A stretch of DNA of 35,548 bases from an uncultured bacterium (GTDB taxonomy: Bacteria; Bacillota_I; Bacilli_A; RF39; UBA660), in assembly GCA_946611605.1 (NCBI GenBank), contig CAMODU010000009.1, positions 1 through 35,548 of the forward strand. Reading direction: 5' to 3'. The notes below the pieces were generated by a model. It saw only the letters and a program-made list of their open reading frames with translations. It did not search any database and was not told the origin of the DNA. Shown here piece after piece: positions 15,578 through 35,372 of this stretch. The position numbers and the translations under genes are program-made. How positions within the stretch are numbered: position 1 is the first letter of the stretch; the number at the start of each line of letters is the position of its first letter.

Positions 15578-17134
15578 CTATTCCACATTAACATCTTCAC
15601 CAAATAATTCTTCAGCTAGTCCTTGAGAACCACTTGTATTAATATATTCAGTGTCATCCATTATTTTATATTCTTTATCCTTATTAAATGATTTTTTTAT
15701 TATATCCCACTCGTTTGATGTAATAACAATCATTTTATAAGTACTATTATTTTGTTGATTAAACTTGTTTTCTAAAATATCAAGCTTATTATTTGATAAT
15801 ACCTTAACTGAATCTCTTTTAGTTGTAAAAATAACATTAGAATCAGATACTACCATTGGTTCTATGTCTTTAGTTATACTAAATAATTCTTTTATATCTT
15901 CTTTTTTAACATAATCTTTAAATAATTTCCATTTACCTATGAAAGCTTCTTTATTTTCTTTAGAAGCTCCAACAAAAGAATTATTAACTCTTATATTTAT
16001 GAACTCTTCACATAAATTATAGTAATGATTATTATCATCTTCTAATATATCTTTTGGTATTATTTCTTGGGACATTACTTGATCAATTTCCCTACTACTC
16101 ATCTTATTATCATCTGAATTTATAAATGACAATAAATTTAATTGAAGCATCAAGTATCCGTTAGTAGTATTATTAATACCAACTAAAAGATTATTTAGTA
16201 TACTTATAATCTCTTTTATATGATTAAACGTTACATTACTCATATTTTTCTTTTTCATTTCAACTGCTTTATCAATGTAATTTTCAATCATCTTGTTAAT
16301 AAATATTTTAATATCAACACCAGATTCTTTAACTGCGTTAATATCATTTATTAAAGCATCCAAATCATTGTGTAATAAATCATAATAAATCTTATTTATA
16401 TCTTCATCAGTAACAGTTCCATAGTTTTGTTTAAGTACATCCATATCAATATTATCTGATACTTTAGATAATTGATCTAATATACTTAGAGCATCTCTCA
16501 TACATCCATCAGATAAATAAGATATTTCTACTACAGCATCATCTGAAATTTTAATTGATTCTTGCTTACATATATCTTTAATTTGTTTTTGAATTAGTTC
16601 TCTATCAATTCTACTAAAATCAAATCTTTGGCATCTAGATAGTACTGTTATAGGTACTTTTTGTATTTCAGTAGTAGCAAGAATAAATATTACATTTTGA
16701 GGTGGTTCCTCTAAAGTTTTAAGGAATGCATTCCATGCACTCGAAGAAAGCATATGTACCTCATCTATAATATAAATCTTATATTTAGAAGAAGTAGGAG
16801 CAATTGTAACATTTTCCTTAATCTCTCTAATATAATCTACTCCATTATTGGAAGCAGCATCTAATTCAATAATGTCAGGTGATGTATTAAAATTAATACA
16901 ATTATCACATTCTTCACACGGAATACCATTTTTAGCATTAGGACAATTCAATGCCTTAGCAAAAATCTTAGCTGTACTAGTTTTACCTGTACCTCTTGGC
17001 CCAGTAAAGATATAAGCATGAGCTATTTTGTCTTCAATAATTGAGTTTTTTAATATTCTGACTATACTATCTTGACCAATTAATTGATCAAAATTAGATG
17101 GTCTATATTTTCTATATAATACCTTATAGTTCAT
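15578..17134 (-). CDS. dnaX: DNA polymerase III gamma/tau subunit
   Basis: ATG at 17134 is preceded by AGGTGAGAGGT; a GTG at 17143 is also in frame. The protein has 518 residues, on the small side for tau. Residues about 1-220 are an AAA+ ATPase: YRKYRPSNFDQLIGQ, Walker A GPRGTGKTSTAK, the zinc motif CPNAKNGIPCEECDNC, Walker B IDEVHMLS, sensor SRCQRFDF. Domain III follows, then a charged C-terminal tail of about 100 residues that probably contacts DnaB and PolC. There is no obvious A-run frameshift site that would generate a short gamma form. Together with holB (delta') it forms the clamp loader. It has an extended -10 promoter (17153-17161) in the gap after tadA. Confidence 0.97.
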   Translation of the reverse strand: MNYKVLYRKYRPSNFDQLIGQDSIVRILKNSIIEDKIAHAYIFTGPRGTGKTSTAKIFAKALNCPNAKNGIPCEECDNCINFNTSPDIIELDAASNNGVDYIREIKENVTIAPTSSKYKIYIIDEVHMLSSSAWNAFLKTLEEPPQNVIFILATTEIQKVPITVLSRCQRFDFSRIDRELIQKQIKDICKQESIKISDDAVVEISYLSDGCMRDALSILDQLSKVSDNIDMDVLKQNYGTVTDEDINKIYYDLLHNDLDALINDINAVKESGVDIKIFINKMIENYIDKAVEMKKKNMSNVTFNHIKEIISILNNLLVGINNTTNGYLMLQLNLLSFINSDDNKMSSREIDQVMSQEIIPKDILEDDNNHYYNLCEEFINIRVNNSFVGASKENKEAFIGKWKLFKDYVKKEDIKELFSITKDIEPMVVSDSNVIFTTKRDSVKVLSNNKLDILENKFNQQNNSTYKMIVITSNEWDIIKKSFNKDKEYKIMDDTEYINTSGSQGLAEELFGEDVNVE

Positions 17135-17152
17135 ACCTCTCACCTACTTATA

Positions 17153-17169: not shown

Positions 17170-17589
17170 CTATCTATTTAAGTTTTTATCAAAGAAATTA
17201 CTTAATTTTTCTTTATAATTATTTACTACGGATTCGTCACATACTAACGTACTTTTGTTCGTTCTATTGTATTTATGTTTATCCTTGTTTTCTAATAAAA
17301 AATATATATTATCAATACGTGATTCTTTTATCACTTCAATACACATATCACAAGGTTCTAAAGTAACATATAGATCACATCCATTTAATCTCCAATCTCC
17401 AAGATTGGTCGAAGCATCTTTAATAGCATTAATTTCTGCATGACCTGTAGGGTCTTTTGTTAATACTCTATTATTAAAACCTCTACCAATAATAGTATTA
17501 TCTTTAACTACAATAGCTCCAACAGGGATATCGTTAATTTTTTCAGCTTTATTTGCTAACATTATTATTTCATCAATATATTCATTCAT
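17170..17589 (-). CDS. tadA: tRNA-specific adenosine deaminase TadA
   Basis: The protein has 139 residues. The cytidine/deoxycytidylate deaminase zinc motifs are present: GHAEINAI (His50, Glu52) and PCDMC (Cys80 and Cys83). The second cysteine pair is followed by IEVI rather than the common AGAI. An early D-I-P-V-G-A-I-V block is also typical. TadA converts A34 to inosine in tRNA-Arg(ACG), needed for decoding CGN codons. It sits directly downstream of the SRP RNA gene, as in Bacillus (tadA-scr-dnaX neighbourhood), though here the RNA is upstream of tadA. It has a weak GTGAGATGA ribosome site. Confidence 0.94.
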   Translation of the reverse strand: MNEYIDEIIMLANKAEKINDIPVGAIVVKDNTIIGRGFNNRVLTKDPTGHAEINAIKDASTNLGDWRLNGCDLYVTLEPCDMCIEVIKESRIDNIYFLLENKDKHKYNRTNKSTLVCDESVVNNYKEKLSNFFDKNLNR

Positions 17590-17603
17590 AAAATCATCTC
17601 ACT

Positions 17604-17680
17604 AAAAAAGCGCACACGATTAGGGATTAATGTGGCTGCTACATTCCTGTCCTGACCAGTTTATAATATAATCGTTGCGC
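17604..17680 (-). ncRNA. ffs: Signal recognition particle RNA (4.5S type)
   Basis: The minus strand from 17680 starts GCGCAACGATTA, and its 3' strand ends TAATCGTGTGCGC, so the ends pair. In the apical part is GGTCAGG then ACAGGAATGTAGCAGCC, the conserved domain IV: a GGAA tetraloop and AGCAGCC symmetric loop that bind Ffh. The mature RNA is about 71 nt, a short Alu-less form, not the about 270-nt Bacillus scRNA. The closing stem followed by TTTTTT works as the terminator. It forms with Ffh the particle that targets membrane proteins to the translocon. Confidence 0.93.
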
Positions 17681-17686
17681 AATATA

Positions 17687-17715: not shown

Positions 17716-17725
17716 GTTATATCAA

Positions 17726-17741
17726 TGTTTCACGTGAAACA
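17726..17741. promoter_or_regulatory. parS site 1 (ParB/Noc-family binding palindrome)
   Basis: TGTTTCACGTGAAACA, the perfect 16-bp parS core of Bacillus. The perfect palindrome extends to 30 bp (17719-17748). It stands in the ffs-gyrA gap, upstream of the ffs promoter. Confidence 0.93.
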
Positions 17742-17764
17742 TTGATATTAATATATAAATAATT

Positions 17765-17778
17765 ATTTCCCGGGAAAT
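17765..17778. promoter_or_regulatory. Noc-binding site (NBS) palindrome
   Basis: ATTTCCCGGGAAAT, identical to the 14-bp Noc-binding consensus described for Bacillus subtilis. It is flanked by one more paired base each side. It lies between parS site 1 and site 2 and is the only CCCGGG I see in this AT-rich window. Confidence 0.85.
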
Positions 17779-17787
17779 ATTTTTATA

Positions 17788-17803
17788 TGTTTCACGTGAA
17801 ACA
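17788..17803. promoter_or_regulatory. parS site 2
   Basis: TGTTTCACGTGAAACA, perfect 16-bp core; the palindrome extends to 17784-17807. It lies 9 bp from the Noc-binding site. Confidence 0.93.
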
Positions 17804-17828
17804 TATATTCAAAAAAATGTTACTTCAA

Positions 17829-17844
17829 TGTTTCACGTGAAACA
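17829..17844. promoter_or_regulatory. parS site 3
   Basis: TGTTTCACGTGAAACA, perfect core; palindrome extends to 17824-17849. It abuts the gyrA terminator T-run. Confidence 0.93.
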
Positions 17845-17851
17845 TTGAAAT

Positions 17852-17880
17852 AAAAAAGAAGAGATTATTCAGTCTCTTCT
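17852..17880 (-). terminator. Intrinsic terminator of gyrA
   Basis: An 8-bp perfect stem AGAAGAGA/TCTCTTCT (17857-17864 with 17873-17880) has an 8-nt loop that contains the gyrA stop codon; T-run TTTTTT follows. Transcripts would stop a few bases short of parS site 3. Confidence 0.8.
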
Positions 17881-20441
17881 TCTTTGTTTTCATCAATTAC
17901 TTCGTCAGATGATTCTTCATCTTTAGCAATAATACTTACTGTAGATACGAATTGTTCATCTTTTAAGTTAATTAATCTTACACCTTGAGTAACTCTATTT
18001 AATTGAGAAATAGAACTTACAGGTATTCTTATAATCATTCCTTGTTCAGTAACAATTAATAATGATTTATCATCATCAACAATCTTATGTGCTATCATTC
18101 CACCAGTTTTATCTGTGGCTTTGATACTTAATACACCCTTAGATCCACGTTTAGTCTTTCTATAGTCTTTAACGAATGTTCTCTTACCATATCCATTTCT
18201 AGAAATTACTAGTAAGTTATCTTCATCAGTACCAACTTCCATACCAGTACATTCACCACCATCAAGGTTGATACCCTTAACACCAGTAGCTGTTCTACCC
18301 ATTGGTCTAATTTCAGATTCATCGAATACTACTATCTTACCAGATGTAGATCCAAGAATAATATTCATATTACCATCAGTTAATCTAACATCAATTAGTT
18401 CATCATCATCATGTAATGTAATAGCTATCTTACCTGATTTTCTAATATTTTCGTATTCTTCATTAGGTGTTTTCTTAATAATACCTTGTTTAGTAGCAAA
18501 TACTGTGTATTTCATTGATGTTTCACGTGAAACATTGATTATAGAATTTACCTTTTCATCTTTTTCTATTTGAATTAAGTTGATTATTGGTAATCCCTTA
18601 GCATTTCTACCATATTCAGGTATTTCATAACCTTTTAATCTATATACTCTACCTTTATTTGTGAAGATACATACATAATCATGTGTAGATGAATTAATTA
18701 AGAATTTAACGTAATCATCTTCATTAGTAGTCATTCCTTTAACTCCTACACCACCACGATTTTGTTCACGGTATGTATCAGCAGATAAACGTTTAATATA
18801 ACCCTTATCAGTTAATGTAATAATAATATTTTCTTCAGGAATTAATGATTCGTCTTCAATGAAATCAATTGCAGTCATATCAATATGAGTACGTCTTTCA
18901 TCACCGAATCTATTAGCAACATCTAATAATTCCTTCTTAACTATATCTCTAACCATTTCATCAGAATTTAATATAGCATTATAGTTTTCGATATCCTTTA
19001 ATAAGCCATCTCTTTCTTCATTTAACTTATCTAATTCAAGACCAGTTAACTTTCTTAATCTCATTTGTAAGATGTCTTCTGATTGAATATCATCTAAACC
19101 ATATTTTTCTTCTAATTTAGATTTAGCTTCTTGATCTGTTCTTGATCCTCTAATAATCTTAACGAAATCATCAATATTATTAATAGCAATAATTTCTCCA
19201 TCCAAGATATGTACTCTATTTTCAGCTTGTCCAAGATCATATCTAGTACGTCTTATTACTACTTCTTTTTGGAAGTCAGTATACTTACGTAATACATCTT
19301 TTAAGCCTAAAGTACGAGGAATTCCATTGTCTAACATTAATAAATTAATACTATATGTCATTTGTAATGGAGTTGATTTATATAAGTTATTTAATATAAC
19401 ATTTGGATTTGCATCTTTCTTACAAGTAACTACTATTTTAATACCATTTTCAATATTAGTTTCTTCATGTAAGTCTGATATTCCATCTATAACTTTATCT
19501 CTAACTAATTCAGCAATCTTAGTTTGTAATTCTTTCTTATTAACTCCATATGGAATTTCAGTAATTACTATTAAACTATGATTTTGTTTTTCTTGAATTT
19601 CAACTTTACCTCTTATTGTAATAGTACCTTTACCAGTTGCATATGCTTGTCTAATACCTGAATTTCCAAGGATTATAGCACCTGTAGGAAAATCTGGACC
19701 CTTAACATGAGTCATTAATTCATCTAACTCAATTTCAGGATTATCTAATACAGCAACACATCCATTTACTACTTCTCTTAAGTTATGTGGAGGTATATTA
19801 GTTGCCATACCAACAGCAATACCCATAGTACCATTTACTAAGATATTTGGATATCTTGAAGGTAAAACACTTGGTTCTTTTCTAGTAGCATCAAAGTTAT
19901 CTACGAAATCAATAGTATCTTTCTTAATATCTCTGATCATTTCAAGTGACATTTTAGATAAACGTGCTTCAGTATAACGCATTGCTGCAGCTCCGTCACC
20001 ATCCATTGAACCAAAGTTACCATGTCCATCAATAAGTGGATATCTATACGAGAAATCTTGTGCCATTCTTACCATAGCATCATAGATTGCAGTATCACCA
20101 TGTGGATGGTAAACACCCATAACATTACCAACAGTTGTAGCTGATTTTCTATGAGGTTTATCAGGAGTAATACCATTTTCATACATAGAATAAATAATTC
20201 TTCTATGAACTGGTTTTAAACCATCTCTTAAATCAGGTAAAGCACGAGCAACAATAACAGACATTGAATAGTCTAGGAATGAATCTTTAATTTCTTTAAC
20301 TATATCATTATCTACCATTGAATCTGCTCCACTACCTTCTGTAGAAGATACTATTTCAGCAGTATCGCCATCAGTTGATTCTTCTTCATCATCAACTTCT
20401 TCGACTTCTTCTTCAATTATTTCTAATTCTTTATCATCCAT
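17865..20441 (-). CDS. gyrA: DNA gyrase subunit A
   Basis: The protein has 858 residues. An acidic N-terminal extension (about residues 1-45, mostly Glu/Asp/Ser) precedes the usual start [20 protein letters not shown]. The breakage-reunion domain has [11 protein letters not shown] (quinolone region, Thr117 and Asp121) and catalytic Tyr156 in [11 protein letters not shown]. The C-terminal beta-pinwheel carries the GyrA box [12 protein letters not shown], which marks gyrase rather than topo IV. The tail is acidic again. GyrA and GyrB form the A2B2 enzyme that introduces negative supercoils using ATP. The start is firm: AAGGAGGG lies 7 nt upstream. A parS site is embedded in the coding sequence (18519-18534). 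The gap to gyrB is 13 bp. Confidence 0.97.
18519..18534. promoter_or_regulatory. parS site 4, inside gyrA
   Basis: TGTTTCACGTGAAACA in the gyrA coding strand. It is read in frame as part of Asn-Val-Ser-Arg-Glu-Thr (in [13 protein letters not shown]), the same six residues a parS encodes when it sits in this frame in other genes. It is 675 bp from site 3. Confidence 0.9.
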
Positions 20442-25401: not shown

Positions 25402-26787
25402 TTAATTAACACATTTATCTTTTATTTCCATTATTTCTCTATTTAATTCATTATTTGTTTTCATTTCTTTTTCTACTTTATCACATCCATGTAATACAGT
25501 GGCATGGTCTCTTCCAAATTCTTGACCAATTCTTTCAATAGTTTCATTTGTTGTTATTTTAGCTATATACATAGCAACTTGTCTTGCTTTATTAATATTT
25601 GCAGTTCTTTTCTTACTTTTTAATGAATCTTCAGTTACATCATAGTATTCTGCAACTATTTTTCTTATTTTAGCTAAATCATTAGTCATATATTGTTTAG
25701 ATCCAAAGAAATCAATTAATGCTTCTTCAGCAAATTTTAAATCTATTTCTTCAGGAAGTAGTAGAGAAGTGTATACTAATAATCTATTTAATGCTCCTTC
25801 TAATGATCTAACATCAGATGGAGAATTAGTAGCAATATATTCATAAACTTCTTCTTTAACTAAGTTAGCTATTTCCATACCTAATATTTTATTTTTAAGT
25901 ATTTTTATTTTTAATTCCTGTTCAGGAGGTTTAATATCTATTGAAACTCCCCAGTTAAATCTTGTTTGTAATCTACTTTCAAACATATTTAAATCATTTG
26001 GTGTAGTATCAGATGATAAAATTATTTGCTTATCATTATTTTTTAAATAATCATATGTTTGGAAAAATTCATCTTTTGTTTTTTCAGCATTTTGTAACAT
26101 TTGTATATCATCTATGATTAATACATCAATATTACGGTATTTTTCTTTAAAATGTTCTATTAAAGGTATATTATCTGAATTATTATGTTTTCTAGTCATT
26201 TCAGTAAAATCTTCTATAAACTGACCAGATGTTACATATAATACAGTTTTATTACTATTTTCTACTATATAATTACCTATAGCATGCATTAAATGAGTTT
26301 TACCAATTCCAGATCTACCATATATAAAGAAAGGATTATATGTTTTACCAGGATGTTTAGCTACTTCTAGAGCAGCAGTGTGGGCCATTCTATTTGAATC
26401 ACCTACAATAAAGTTATCAAATCTATATTCAGGTTTAAGATTACTATTTAAGTTTTTATATTTTATATCATAATTTTCTATACTATTATCTTTATTATTA
26501 ATAATAGGTGTAGTTTCATTTTCATCTTCATCATTTATATTAAAGTCAGTTACCAGTTCAAAAGAATAATCTTTATTAGTAATATCTTTTAAACATTGTT
26601 CAATTAAATCAATATAGTCAGGACAATTTAATATATGTTGTCTTTTTCTATCAGAGTTTATATATAGTGTAATAGGATTATCTGTATCTAATACTTGGAT
26701 ATCTTTAAACCATGTACTATATATAGCGCTGGATACTTTAGACTGTATTGATGTTAAAAAATTAGTTGTAAGTTCATCTACATTCAT
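25402..26787 (-). CDS. dnaA: Chromosomal replication initiator DnaA
   Basis: The protein has 461 residues, close to the family norm. Domain I ends near residue 85; a poorly conserved acidic linker (about 86-125, DINDEDENETTPIINNKDNS) follows. The AAA+ domain begins at NLNSNLKPEYRFDNFIVGDSNRMAHTAAL, with Walker A IYGRSGIGKTHLMHAIG, Walker B DVLIIDDIQML and the sensor region SSDTTPNDLNMFESRLQTRFNWG. Domain IV has the DnaA-box-binding helix GRDHATVLHGCDKVEKEM. DnaA unwinds oriC and loads the helicase. Ribosome site AGGGTGG. The promoter (26823-26852) has a DnaA-box-like site between -35 and -10, so autorepression is likely. Confidence 0.98.
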   Translation of the reverse strand: MNVDELTTNFLTSIQSKVSSAIYSTWFKDIQVLDTDNPITLYINSDRKRQHILNCPDYIDLIEQCLKDITNKDYSFELVTDFNINDEDENETTPIINNKDNSIENYDIKYKNLNSNLKPEYRFDNFIVGDSNRMAHTAALEVAKHPGKTYNPFFIYGRSGIGKTHLMHAIGNYIVENSNKTVLYVTSGQFIEDFTEMTRKHNNSDNIPLIEHFKEKYRNIDVLIIDDIQMLQNAEKTKDEFFQTYDYLKNNDKQIILSSDTTPNDLNMFESRLQTRFNWGVSIDIKPPEQELKIKILKNKILGMEIANLVKEEVYEYIATNSPSDVRSLEGALNRLLVYTSLLLPEEIDLKFAEEALIDFFGSKQYMTNDLAKIRKIVAEYYDVTEDSLKSKKRTANINKARQVAMYIAKITTNETIERIGQEFGRDHATVLHGCDKVEKEMKTNNELNREIMEIKDKCVN

Positions 26788-33172: not shown

Positions 33173-33544
33173 GTGAAAACAAATAAGAAGAATATAATTA
33201 AAGGCAAAGATGATAAATCAGGAAATATAGTAAGACGTATATCTTTAATACTATATTTTTGTCCTACAATTATATATGTATTCTTATTTTATTTAGATAG
33301 TTATACTAGGGATCATTTTGCATTTGCTATTGTACCTGAATTATTTTTTAAAATGTTAATTCCATTTATATTCATCCTACCTTTTATTGGATTTATTACA
33401 TCTATATATGGTGCTATAAAATATCGTAATAATCGTAAATGTATAAGTTTATTCTGGTTCTTATTAGTATTTACTATACTTCTTGCAATAGCATTCTTGT
33501 TAGTATTTGATTTTTTTAGTCATATAGTATCTTTATTCACATAA
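33173..33544 (+). CDS. Small three-span membrane protein, unknown
   Basis: I do not recognise this 123-residue protein. GTG at 33173 is chosen because AGGTGAT lies 3-4 nt upstream; an ATG at 33171 is read out of frame as ATG-TGA. After a basic N-terminus (about 22 residues, KTNKKNIIKGKDDKSGN) there are three predicted membrane spans at about 24-42, 60-85 and 94-120. The second loop has short basic stretches (KYRNNRKC). No enzymatic motif is seen. It and the next gene lie between rsmG and noc, a place that holds no conserved gene in Bacillus. Confidence 0.55.
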   Translation: MKTNKKNIIKGKDDKSGNIVRRISLILYFCPTIIYVFLFYLDSYTRDHFAFAIVPELFFKMLIPFIFILPFIGFITSIYGAIKYRNNRKCISLFWFLLVFTILLAIAFLLVFDFFSHIVSLFT

Positions 33545-33593
33545 CTATTATGGTAGGTATATAAGAAAAATAATTAAGAAATAGGTGATGTAT

Positions 33594-34103
33594 ATGAATA
33601 ATCAAACATCTGATGATATTATTAAAGCTTCATTAGGTCAAGATACTAAAGACCATGCTAGCTTTGTAATTAAACAAGAAGAAAAACAAGAAGAAACATA
33701 CGAAGAAAAAACTATTAATAATGAAACAAATACATTAGAAATGTATAAAAATAGATATAAATTATATAAAACTTTGTTTGATGTATGTTTTATAGTATTT
33801 GTATTATCTATAATATCTTTCATTTTCTTATTAGTTGCAGGTATGGGAAGCATATTCTTTTTAATTGCAGGGGTGGATGTGGTTGTTCCAAATATAAATA
33901 TACCAGAAATAACAACAATAGTTTCATTTGTAGCTGCAATTATCTGTAAAATAGCTGCTTTTGTTGTTAATAATAAGATTAAGAAGTTAGCACCAGAAGA
34001 ATATGATAAGCCAAAGAGTTTATTAAAAAATATTATTAAACTAATTGTTGAAGTAATCTTAATTTTCTTTGTGTTATATATATTATTTATACTTGTACAA
34101 TAA
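33594..34103 (+). CDS. Small membrane protein with acidic cytosolic head, unknown
   Basis: ATG at 33594 is used because AGGTGATG is the ribosome site; earlier in-frame GTG (33585) and ATG (33588) lie inside it. The product has 169 residues. The first 55 are acidic and polar (IKQEEKQEETYEEK), then spans at about 58-85, 95-115 and 140-165. The middle span has a Gly-rich start (AGMGSIFFLIAGV). It follows the previous gene at 49 nt without a terminator, so the two may be one transcript. No function can be given. It ends in a good terminator. Confidence 0.5.
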   Translation: MNNQTSDDIIKASLGQDTKDHASFVIKQEEKQEETYEEKTINNETNTLEMYKNRYKLYKTLFDVCFIVFVLSIISFIFLLVAGMGSIFFLIAGVDVVVPNINIPEITTIVSFVAAIICKIAAFVVNNKIKKLAPEEYDKPKSLLKNIIKLIVEVILIFFVLYILFILVQ

Positions 34104-34223: not shown

Positions 34224-35372
34224 ATGAAGATGGAAGCTCAAATTAGAATGATAAATGCTGAAGATATCATTCCTAATAGATTTCAACCTAGATTAGAATT
34301 TGATCCAGTTGCTCTTCAAGAGTTAGCTTCTAGTATTAGAGTTCATGGTATTGTTCAACCTCTTGTAGTAAGACGTGTACAAGATAAATATGAAATTATT
34401 GCAGGCGAAAGAAGATTTAAAGCTTCTCAATTACTTGGTTTATCATCTGTTCCTTGTATTATATGTGATTTAGATGATAATGAATCAGCAGAAGTTGCTG
34501 TTATTGAAAATATACATAGAAAAGACTTATCTCCTATAGAAGAAGCTAAAAGCTTTAAAAAGATACTTGATAAGCATTATTTAACTCAAGATCAATTAGC
34601 AGCTCGTATGGGTATGGCTCAATCTACTTTAGCTAATAAATTAAGATTATTAACATTAGATGAAGCTGTTCAAGAAGCATTACAAAAGAATCAAATATCT
34701 GAAAGACATGCTAGAAGTTTATTAAGATTAACAGATAAAATGAAACAAGTTGATTTACTTAATGAAATAATTAAGAATAGATTAACTGTTAAACAATTAG
34801 ATGATCAAATAGAATCTATATTAGGTACTTATAAGAAACAAGAAAATGTAACAGGTGGAATAAATGTTGATTCACGTATGGATGTAGATATATCTGATGC
34901 ATTGAATCAAGATGATGAATTTAACTTATCTATTCATCCAACAGAATATCAATATAGATCTAAGATTGATGATAAAAATGATAAAAAGAGATTATTCTTT
35001 AATAATTTAGAAGATCATCCAGCAACTATGGAAGATCCTACATTATCATTTGGTTTTAATCCATTCAAAACTCAAGATATAGTAGCTCAAGAAGGTCTTG
35101 TAGATCTAGAAGAAGAAATATCTGATGTAGATGATGAAACAGATATACCTAAAGAAGGTTCAGTTGCTGCTCAAGAAGCTGAAGAGAAAAAATTCAATAT
35201 GGATGTTTATACTCCTAGAGAATTAACTAGAGCAGTAAATGATTTATTACAATTAGCTATTGATAATGGATTAGATGTTAAATCAGAAGAATTTAATTTT
35301 ACTGATATATATCAAATAGTTATCAAGGTACAAAAAAATCCTGAAGAAGAAAAAGAAGAGGAAAATAAATAG
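34224..35372 (+). CDS. noc: Noc/ParB-family chromosome segregation or occlusion protein
   Basis: The protein has 382 residues, against about 283 in B. subtilis Noc. ParB/Noc N-terminal domain: NRFQPR (18-23), HGIVQPLVV, CTP motif GERRFKA (61-67) and ENIHRK (95-100). Helix-turn-helix GMAQSTLANKLRLL. At the four residues that separate Noc from ParB in work on the family, it has Gln133, Lys139, Thr144 and Arg161 (Noc: Gln-Lys-Lys-Arg; ParB: Arg-Thr-Ala-Gly), so it is Noc-like at three of four. The N-terminus starts directly at the beta-strand, without the amphipathic membrane helix of Bacillus Noc. Residues about 205-325 are an unusual acidic linker with an ordered-looking end (326-370). Ribosome site GGAGAGG. 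ParA is not in view. Confidence 0.9.
   Translation: MKMEAQIRMINAEDIIPNRFQPRLEFDPVALQELASSIRVHGIVQPLVVRRVQDKYEIIAGERRFKASQLLGLSSVPCIICDLDDNESAEVAVIENIHRKDLSPIEEAKSFKKILDKHYLTQDQLAARMGMAQSTLANKLRLLTLDEAVQEALQKNQISERHARSLLRLTDKMKQVDLLNEIIKNRLTVKQLDDQIESILGTYKKQENVTGGINVDSRMDVDISDALNQDDEFNLSIHPTEYQYRSKIDDKNDKKRLFFNNLEDHPATMEDPTLSFGFNPFKTQDIVAQEGLVDLEEEISDVDDETDIPKEGSVAAQEAEEKKFNMDVYTPRELTRAVNDLLQLAIDNGLDVKSEEFNFTDIYQIVIKVQKNPEEEKEEENK

Follow-up and report, generated by a model that had tools for sequence, protein, structure and literature searches.

In this genome, ParB and a repurposed Noc, two paralogous CTP-clamp proteins, probably share the gap between ffs and gyrA as a composite loading zone close to the replication origin. 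The window (the whole stretch of DNA that was analyzed, 35,548 nt in length) contains four perfect copies of parS, TGTTTCACGTGAAACA, three of them in the gap and one within gyrA. A single perfect copy of the Noc-binding site (NBS), ATTTCCCGGGAAAT, lies at 17765–17778, among the parS sites of the gap. An earlier note, made from the sequence alone, had reported these sites, and each was found where it had been placed. Together, the three parS sites and the NBS of the gap span 119 bp, with the center of the NBS 38 bp from that of parS 1 and 24 bp from that of parS 2. The local gene order is dnaX, tadA-like, ffs, gap, gyrA, gyrB, recF. Features of the region are as follows.

15578–17143, minus strand: dnaX, a syntenic flank and an alternative place of the NBS in relatives
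16062–16075, no strand: decayed NBS relic in dnaX, with 3 mismatches, coding for MSQEI here and ISREI in relatives
17170–17589, minus strand: gene for a tadA-like deaminase (best NCBIfam match TadA, below cut-off), a syntenic flank
17601–17686, minus strand: ffs, the small SRP RNA (Rfam), bordering the gap on one side
17726–17741, no strand: parS 1, perfect, within an extended palindrome of 30 bp
17765–17778, no strand: NBS, perfect, with a palindrome that extends to 16 bp
17788–17803, no strand: parS 2, perfect, within an extended palindrome of 24 bp
17829–17844, no strand: parS 3, perfect, within an extended palindrome of 26 bp
17865–20441, minus strand: gyrA, bordering the gap on the other side
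18519–18534, no strand: parS 4, perfect, inside gyrA and translated through as NVSRETS
25402–26787, minus strand: dnaA, a marker of the origin region
34224–35372, plus strand: gene for the Noc-like ParB-fold protein (382 aa; code Q-K-T-R; FFNNLE in a long acidic insert)

With up to 3 mismatches allowed, the window yielded the same four parS sites, all of them perfect, versus 0.10 expected from shuffled sequence. We also searched the genome assembly (1.0 Mb in 47 contigs, 92.7% complete) for both motifs, as the earlier note had proposed. Just the four window copies of parS were recovered at ≤2 mismatches, and one NBS, that of the window, at ≤1 mismatch; the runner-up was a 2-mismatch sequence on contig C32. 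The center of the NBS is 9.0 kb from the start of dnaA, in agreement with the earlier estimate of about 9 kb from the origin. A parS cluster near oriC, here 9 kb from dnaA, is as expected for a ParABS system.

ParB and Noc serve as a textbook case of a duplicated gene whose copies came to differ in DNA specificity, and each is regarded as a system of its own with its own sites. A ParB_N search of the genome, which covered the ParB and Noc paralogues that the earlier note had wanted listed, recovered two proteins only. One is a ParB of 295 aa, encoded on contig C1 directly behind parA (coding region 1003–1890 of locus L007). Both this parAB operon and the ParA-binding motif of the protein (RALGKGL, containing LGKGL as defined in PMC12704722) are typical of ParABS. 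The other is the Noc-like protein of the window, in which the LGKGL motif is not present. Its gene follows rsmG and the genes of two small predicted membrane proteins, which is where noc usually lies. The two small ORFs between rsmG and the noc-like gene (33173–33544 and 33585–34103) have hydrophobic stretches and no Pfam match. The closest solved relatives are Noc (7ng0 and 7nfu; 206 bits for 7ng0) for the window protein and Spo0J (6sdk) for ParB. A GERR motif, which would relate to CTP-dependent clamp closing, can be recognized in the sequences of both proteins.

The specificity code at Caulobacter positions 173, 179, 184 and 201 is RTAG for ParB and QKKR for Noc (Jalal et al. 2020, PMC7383237). 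At these positions the Noc-like protein of the window has Q-K-T-R, and the ParB of the same genome has R-L-N-S. The former carries the NBS-type residues expected of Noc (Q173, K at 179 or 184, R201), and Q-K-x-R was seen in 40 of 40 family sequences extracted. The ParB has R173 but S at position 201, where G is reported to be absolutely conserved in ParB (PMC7383237); R173 plus G201 is a reported conservation and no definition of the ParB family. Across the family, position 201 of ParB (n = 31) is S in 12 proteins, G in 18 and A in 1 (the family ParB set comprises the ParB of this genome and L233–L262). Because two proteins with different codes exist, the presence of two motifs can be explained, each motif having its own predicted reader. 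On this prediction the single protein of mixed specificity that the earlier note had considered is not needed, although S201 leaves room for relaxed specificity in ParB.

The Noc-like protein departs from Noc in several respects. Noc of B. subtilis is brought to the membrane by an amphipathic helix at its N-terminus, which is required for nucleoid occlusion (PMC8429893). There is no room for such a helix in the window protein, the frame of which has 386 codons for 382 residues, with only 4 residues preceding the start. A long N-terminal extension was likewise absent from 30 of 30 relatives, all of which start shortly ahead of the core domain. Instead, the Noc-like proteins have a long, variable, acidic insert ahead of the C-terminal domain. 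A [KRSN]FFN-type motif occurs in the insert in 14 of 30 cases, versus 0.58 in shuffled inserts. In the family (the window protein and L183–L212), the recurrent form FFN[FN]LE is likely to be an interaction motif. The curated Noc model TIGR04285 is still the best NCBIfam match of the window protein, with a score of 273 bits, below the cut-off of 315. Given the score below cut-off, the missing N-terminal helix and the long acidic insert, we call the protein Noc-like rather than Noc. Nor are its predicted sites dispersed as those of Noc are: there is one NBS in 1.0 Mb, and family sites are near the origin.

To follow the NBS across the family, we searched 145 genomes, nearly one per genus, with the 12-bp NBS core. 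The core was found in 118 of them, usually in 1–6 copies, versus 0 in a reversed-sequence control. About 136 of the 145 genomes encode Noc-like proteins, and NBS presence tracks with the gene (114 of 136 genomes with it versus 4 of 9 without, p = 0.012); the four genomes with an NBS and no Noc-like gene found are possibly incomplete assemblies. Perfect NBS occurred in 35 of 38 family members versus 10 of 258 others. On noc-bearing contigs, even those of 401, 297 and 273 kb, the listed sites are no farther than about 32 kb from noc, by a comparison of coordinates made by hand. Two NBS fall outside the usual origin-proximal places, on other contigs or at a distance (G015:C1:104580 and G036:C8:46714).

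Certain places recur: the tadA–gyrA gap together with parS, the middle of dnaX, the ricT–mfd gap, and mnmE/mnmG. In many genera a perfect NBS is embedded in the dnaX coding sequence (e.g. L213 11339 and L363 1501). Translation gives ISREI at nearly all of these sites, within a linker whose sequence varies otherwise; in two loci the site lies in a different reading frame, with some frames uncertain. Retention of the site in differing frames, uncertain as some of these are, is consistent with selection on the DNA. Judged from the protein and site data together, the Noc-like protein of the family is not a dispersed, membrane-anchored nucleoid-occlusion factor of the Bacillus type, because it lacks the N-terminal membrane helix and because its NBS, one to few in number, are located almost without exception at most about 32 kb from noc.

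Composite parS–NBS clusters were found in 82 of 386 family genomes, representing 51 of 150 genera. In a class-wide sample, 15 of 54 family members had such clusters, versus 1 of 341 genomes of other families. Among the 55 genera with a complete tadA–gyrA gap, parS (≤1 mismatch) is found there in 42 and a perfect NBS in 24; in 22 the gap holds parS and NBS together at ≤1 mismatch. Where the gap could be read, roughly half of the genera lack an NBS in it. The stretches no more than 150 bp from a parS make up 3.5% of the sequence and hold 37 of the 65 perfect NBS. Counted by locus, the figure is 17 of 34, versus 2.8 expected. Strict clusters were absent from the 9 genomes without a Noc-like gene and present in 33 of 136 with one, a difference that is not significant (p = 0.21). 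At least 114 stretches came out of a scan of named genomes. Metagenome-assembled genomes are the source of the 80 that were listed, and the labels among these 80 are nearly all Bacilli, Bacillales, Tenericutes, Mollicutes or Erysipelotrichaceae. Several loci have long tandem arrays of composite parS + NBS units, with a period that is fixed per genome (G022 contig C1 89189–90101, L011, L012, L048 and L064). We found no report of parS–NBS interleaving in the open-access literature.

The spacing of neighboring parS and NBS is helically phased. Center-to-center distances pile up near 26, 36, 46, 57, 67, 78 and 89 bp. With similar spacers collapsed (n = 142), R was 0.325 at a best period of 10.5 bp (6–20 scanned); the idea of phasing arose from looking at the data, so this first p-value is exploratory. 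When each genus was represented once (n = 51), R was 0.359 and p = 0.004 against a null of ±5 bp jitter. Phasing was also evident at 48–100 bp, a range outside the scan selection (n = 57, p = 0.0003), and in loci picked regardless of spacing (n = 56, p = 0.002). These data sets share species, and the statistics ignore kinship. In a replication with spacers dissimilar to the discovery set (n = 14), the phase was the same but not significant by a non-directional test. No phasing was seen for parS–parS at 17–100 bp (n = 60, p = 0.97) or for NBS–NBS (n = 13). The preferred phase of 0.40–0.52 turn corresponds to about opposite faces of the DNA. The two spacings in the window, 38 and 24 bp, equal 0.62 and 0.29 turn and only straddle this phase.

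Because neighboring parS and NBS are phased at about half a turn, the data suggest that ParB and a Noc-like dimer occupy adjacent sites simultaneously, on sides of the DNA roughly opposite each other. More tentatively, the two proteins could nucleate together, as one complex, on parS–NBS pairs that are in phase, in which case the Noc relative would be a second component of the centromere and not a dispersed inhibitor of division.

A different reading, which we regard as rather unlikely, is that the two proteins are independent neighbors: each needs a site near the origin, the gap by gyrA is among the few AT-rich non-coding stretches there, and they do not interact. Comparison within the genus bears on this. 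Congeners G529, G615 and G684 have 5–7 parS in the gap and no NBS there; each has a single NBS, located in dnaX about 2 kb away, with 1 mismatch in two of them. In a fourth congener, G043, the gap holds two NBS with 1 mismatch each, and perfect NBS lie in dnaX and near mnmE. Considering the dnaX sites of the congeners and the 3-mismatch relic in dnaX of the window, the NBS in the window gap looks like a recent relocation. An NBS confined to dnaX in three congeners, turnover of the site between the gap, dnaX, the ricT–mfd gap and mnmE/mnmG, and the roughly half of gaps that have parS without NBS are all in line with independence. Yet independent placement fits poorly with phasing that appears for parS–NBS in several, partly overlapping data sets and is absent for parS–parS, or with the amplification of composite units as tandem arrays in several genera. 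Thus, the shared loading platform proposed in the earlier note fares differently at two levels. Within the genus, the parS cluster is retained in three of the four congeners and the gap NBS is not, which goes part of the way toward the outcome that the earlier note had named as refuting; across the family, enrichment of NBS beside parS is still strong, and the proposal is upheld by the spread of composite clusters over genera, the locus counts and the phasing.

We think it improbable that ParB with S201 reads both motifs, the NBS being a variant ParB site. Laboratory variants that bind both parS and NBS mostly have S or T at 201, but parS-only variants with S201 are also known (PMC7383237). 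As variants of both kinds carry S, the R-L-N-S code of this ParB, and the occurrence of S201 in 12 of 31 family proteins despite the reported conservation of G201, decide nothing on specificity. Moreover, composite clusters exist in genomes (G004, G012) with the G201 form, which is that of 18 of the 31; a dedicated paralogue of the NBS type is present; and it is NBS–parS rather than parS–parS spacing that is phased. Compared by eye in 31 genomes, S201 and composite clusters gave no convincing association, with strict clusters in 4 of 12 genomes with S and 2 of 18 with G. Natural S201 in ParB does bear on the evolution of specificity. Canonical nucleoid occlusion as in B. subtilis, with dispersed sites missed through fragmentation of the genome, is very improbable: the Q-K-x-R code and a gene located behind rsmG are as in Noc, but one NBS in a 93%-complete assembly, few NBS family-wide, their restriction to about 32 kb from noc even where the contig that carries noc is as long as 401 kb, and absence of the N-terminal helix in 30 of 30 proteins are not.

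We therefore return to the composite loading zone, and draw on the two protein families for how it may work. ParB, made from the parAB operon on another contig, would nucleate on the parS sites, and the Noc-like protein of the window on the NBS. After nucleation, both clamps would be expected to spread outward from the gap. The most likely job of the Noc-like protein would be to mark or organize the origin domain beside the centromere, and through its insert, with FFN[F/N]LE, it may act on a partner, for example the machinery of division or of replication. With this large uncultured family one can ask by experiment which role a Noc plays when it is not anchored in the membrane, and whether its clamps are loaded jointly with those of ParB.

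Like the ParABS centromere (Spo0J/ParB–parS), the gap has a cluster of perfect 16-bp parS sites near the origin, and the genome has a parAB operon and a ParB with the ParA-binding motif; unlike that centromere, the cluster holds an NBS, and ParB has S rather than G at 201. The Noc–NBS systems of B. subtilis and S. aureus (PMC4331003, PMC8429893, PMC5540599) share with the family the 14-bp core site, the NBS-type residues, the rsmG-adjacent gene and the ParB-fold core. The family protein differs in lacking the N-terminal amphipathic helix and having a long acidic insert. Whereas NBS in B. subtilis and S. aureus number in the tens over the origin-proximal chromosome (41 loci by ChIP-seq for S. 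aureus Noc), the family has one or few near the origin, frequently placed among parS sites and in helical phase with them. S. aureus Noc restrains replication initiation and binds weakly near dnaA (PMC5540599), and so provides a precedent for a role beyond division, although its NBS are dispersed and those of the family are restricted to the origin.
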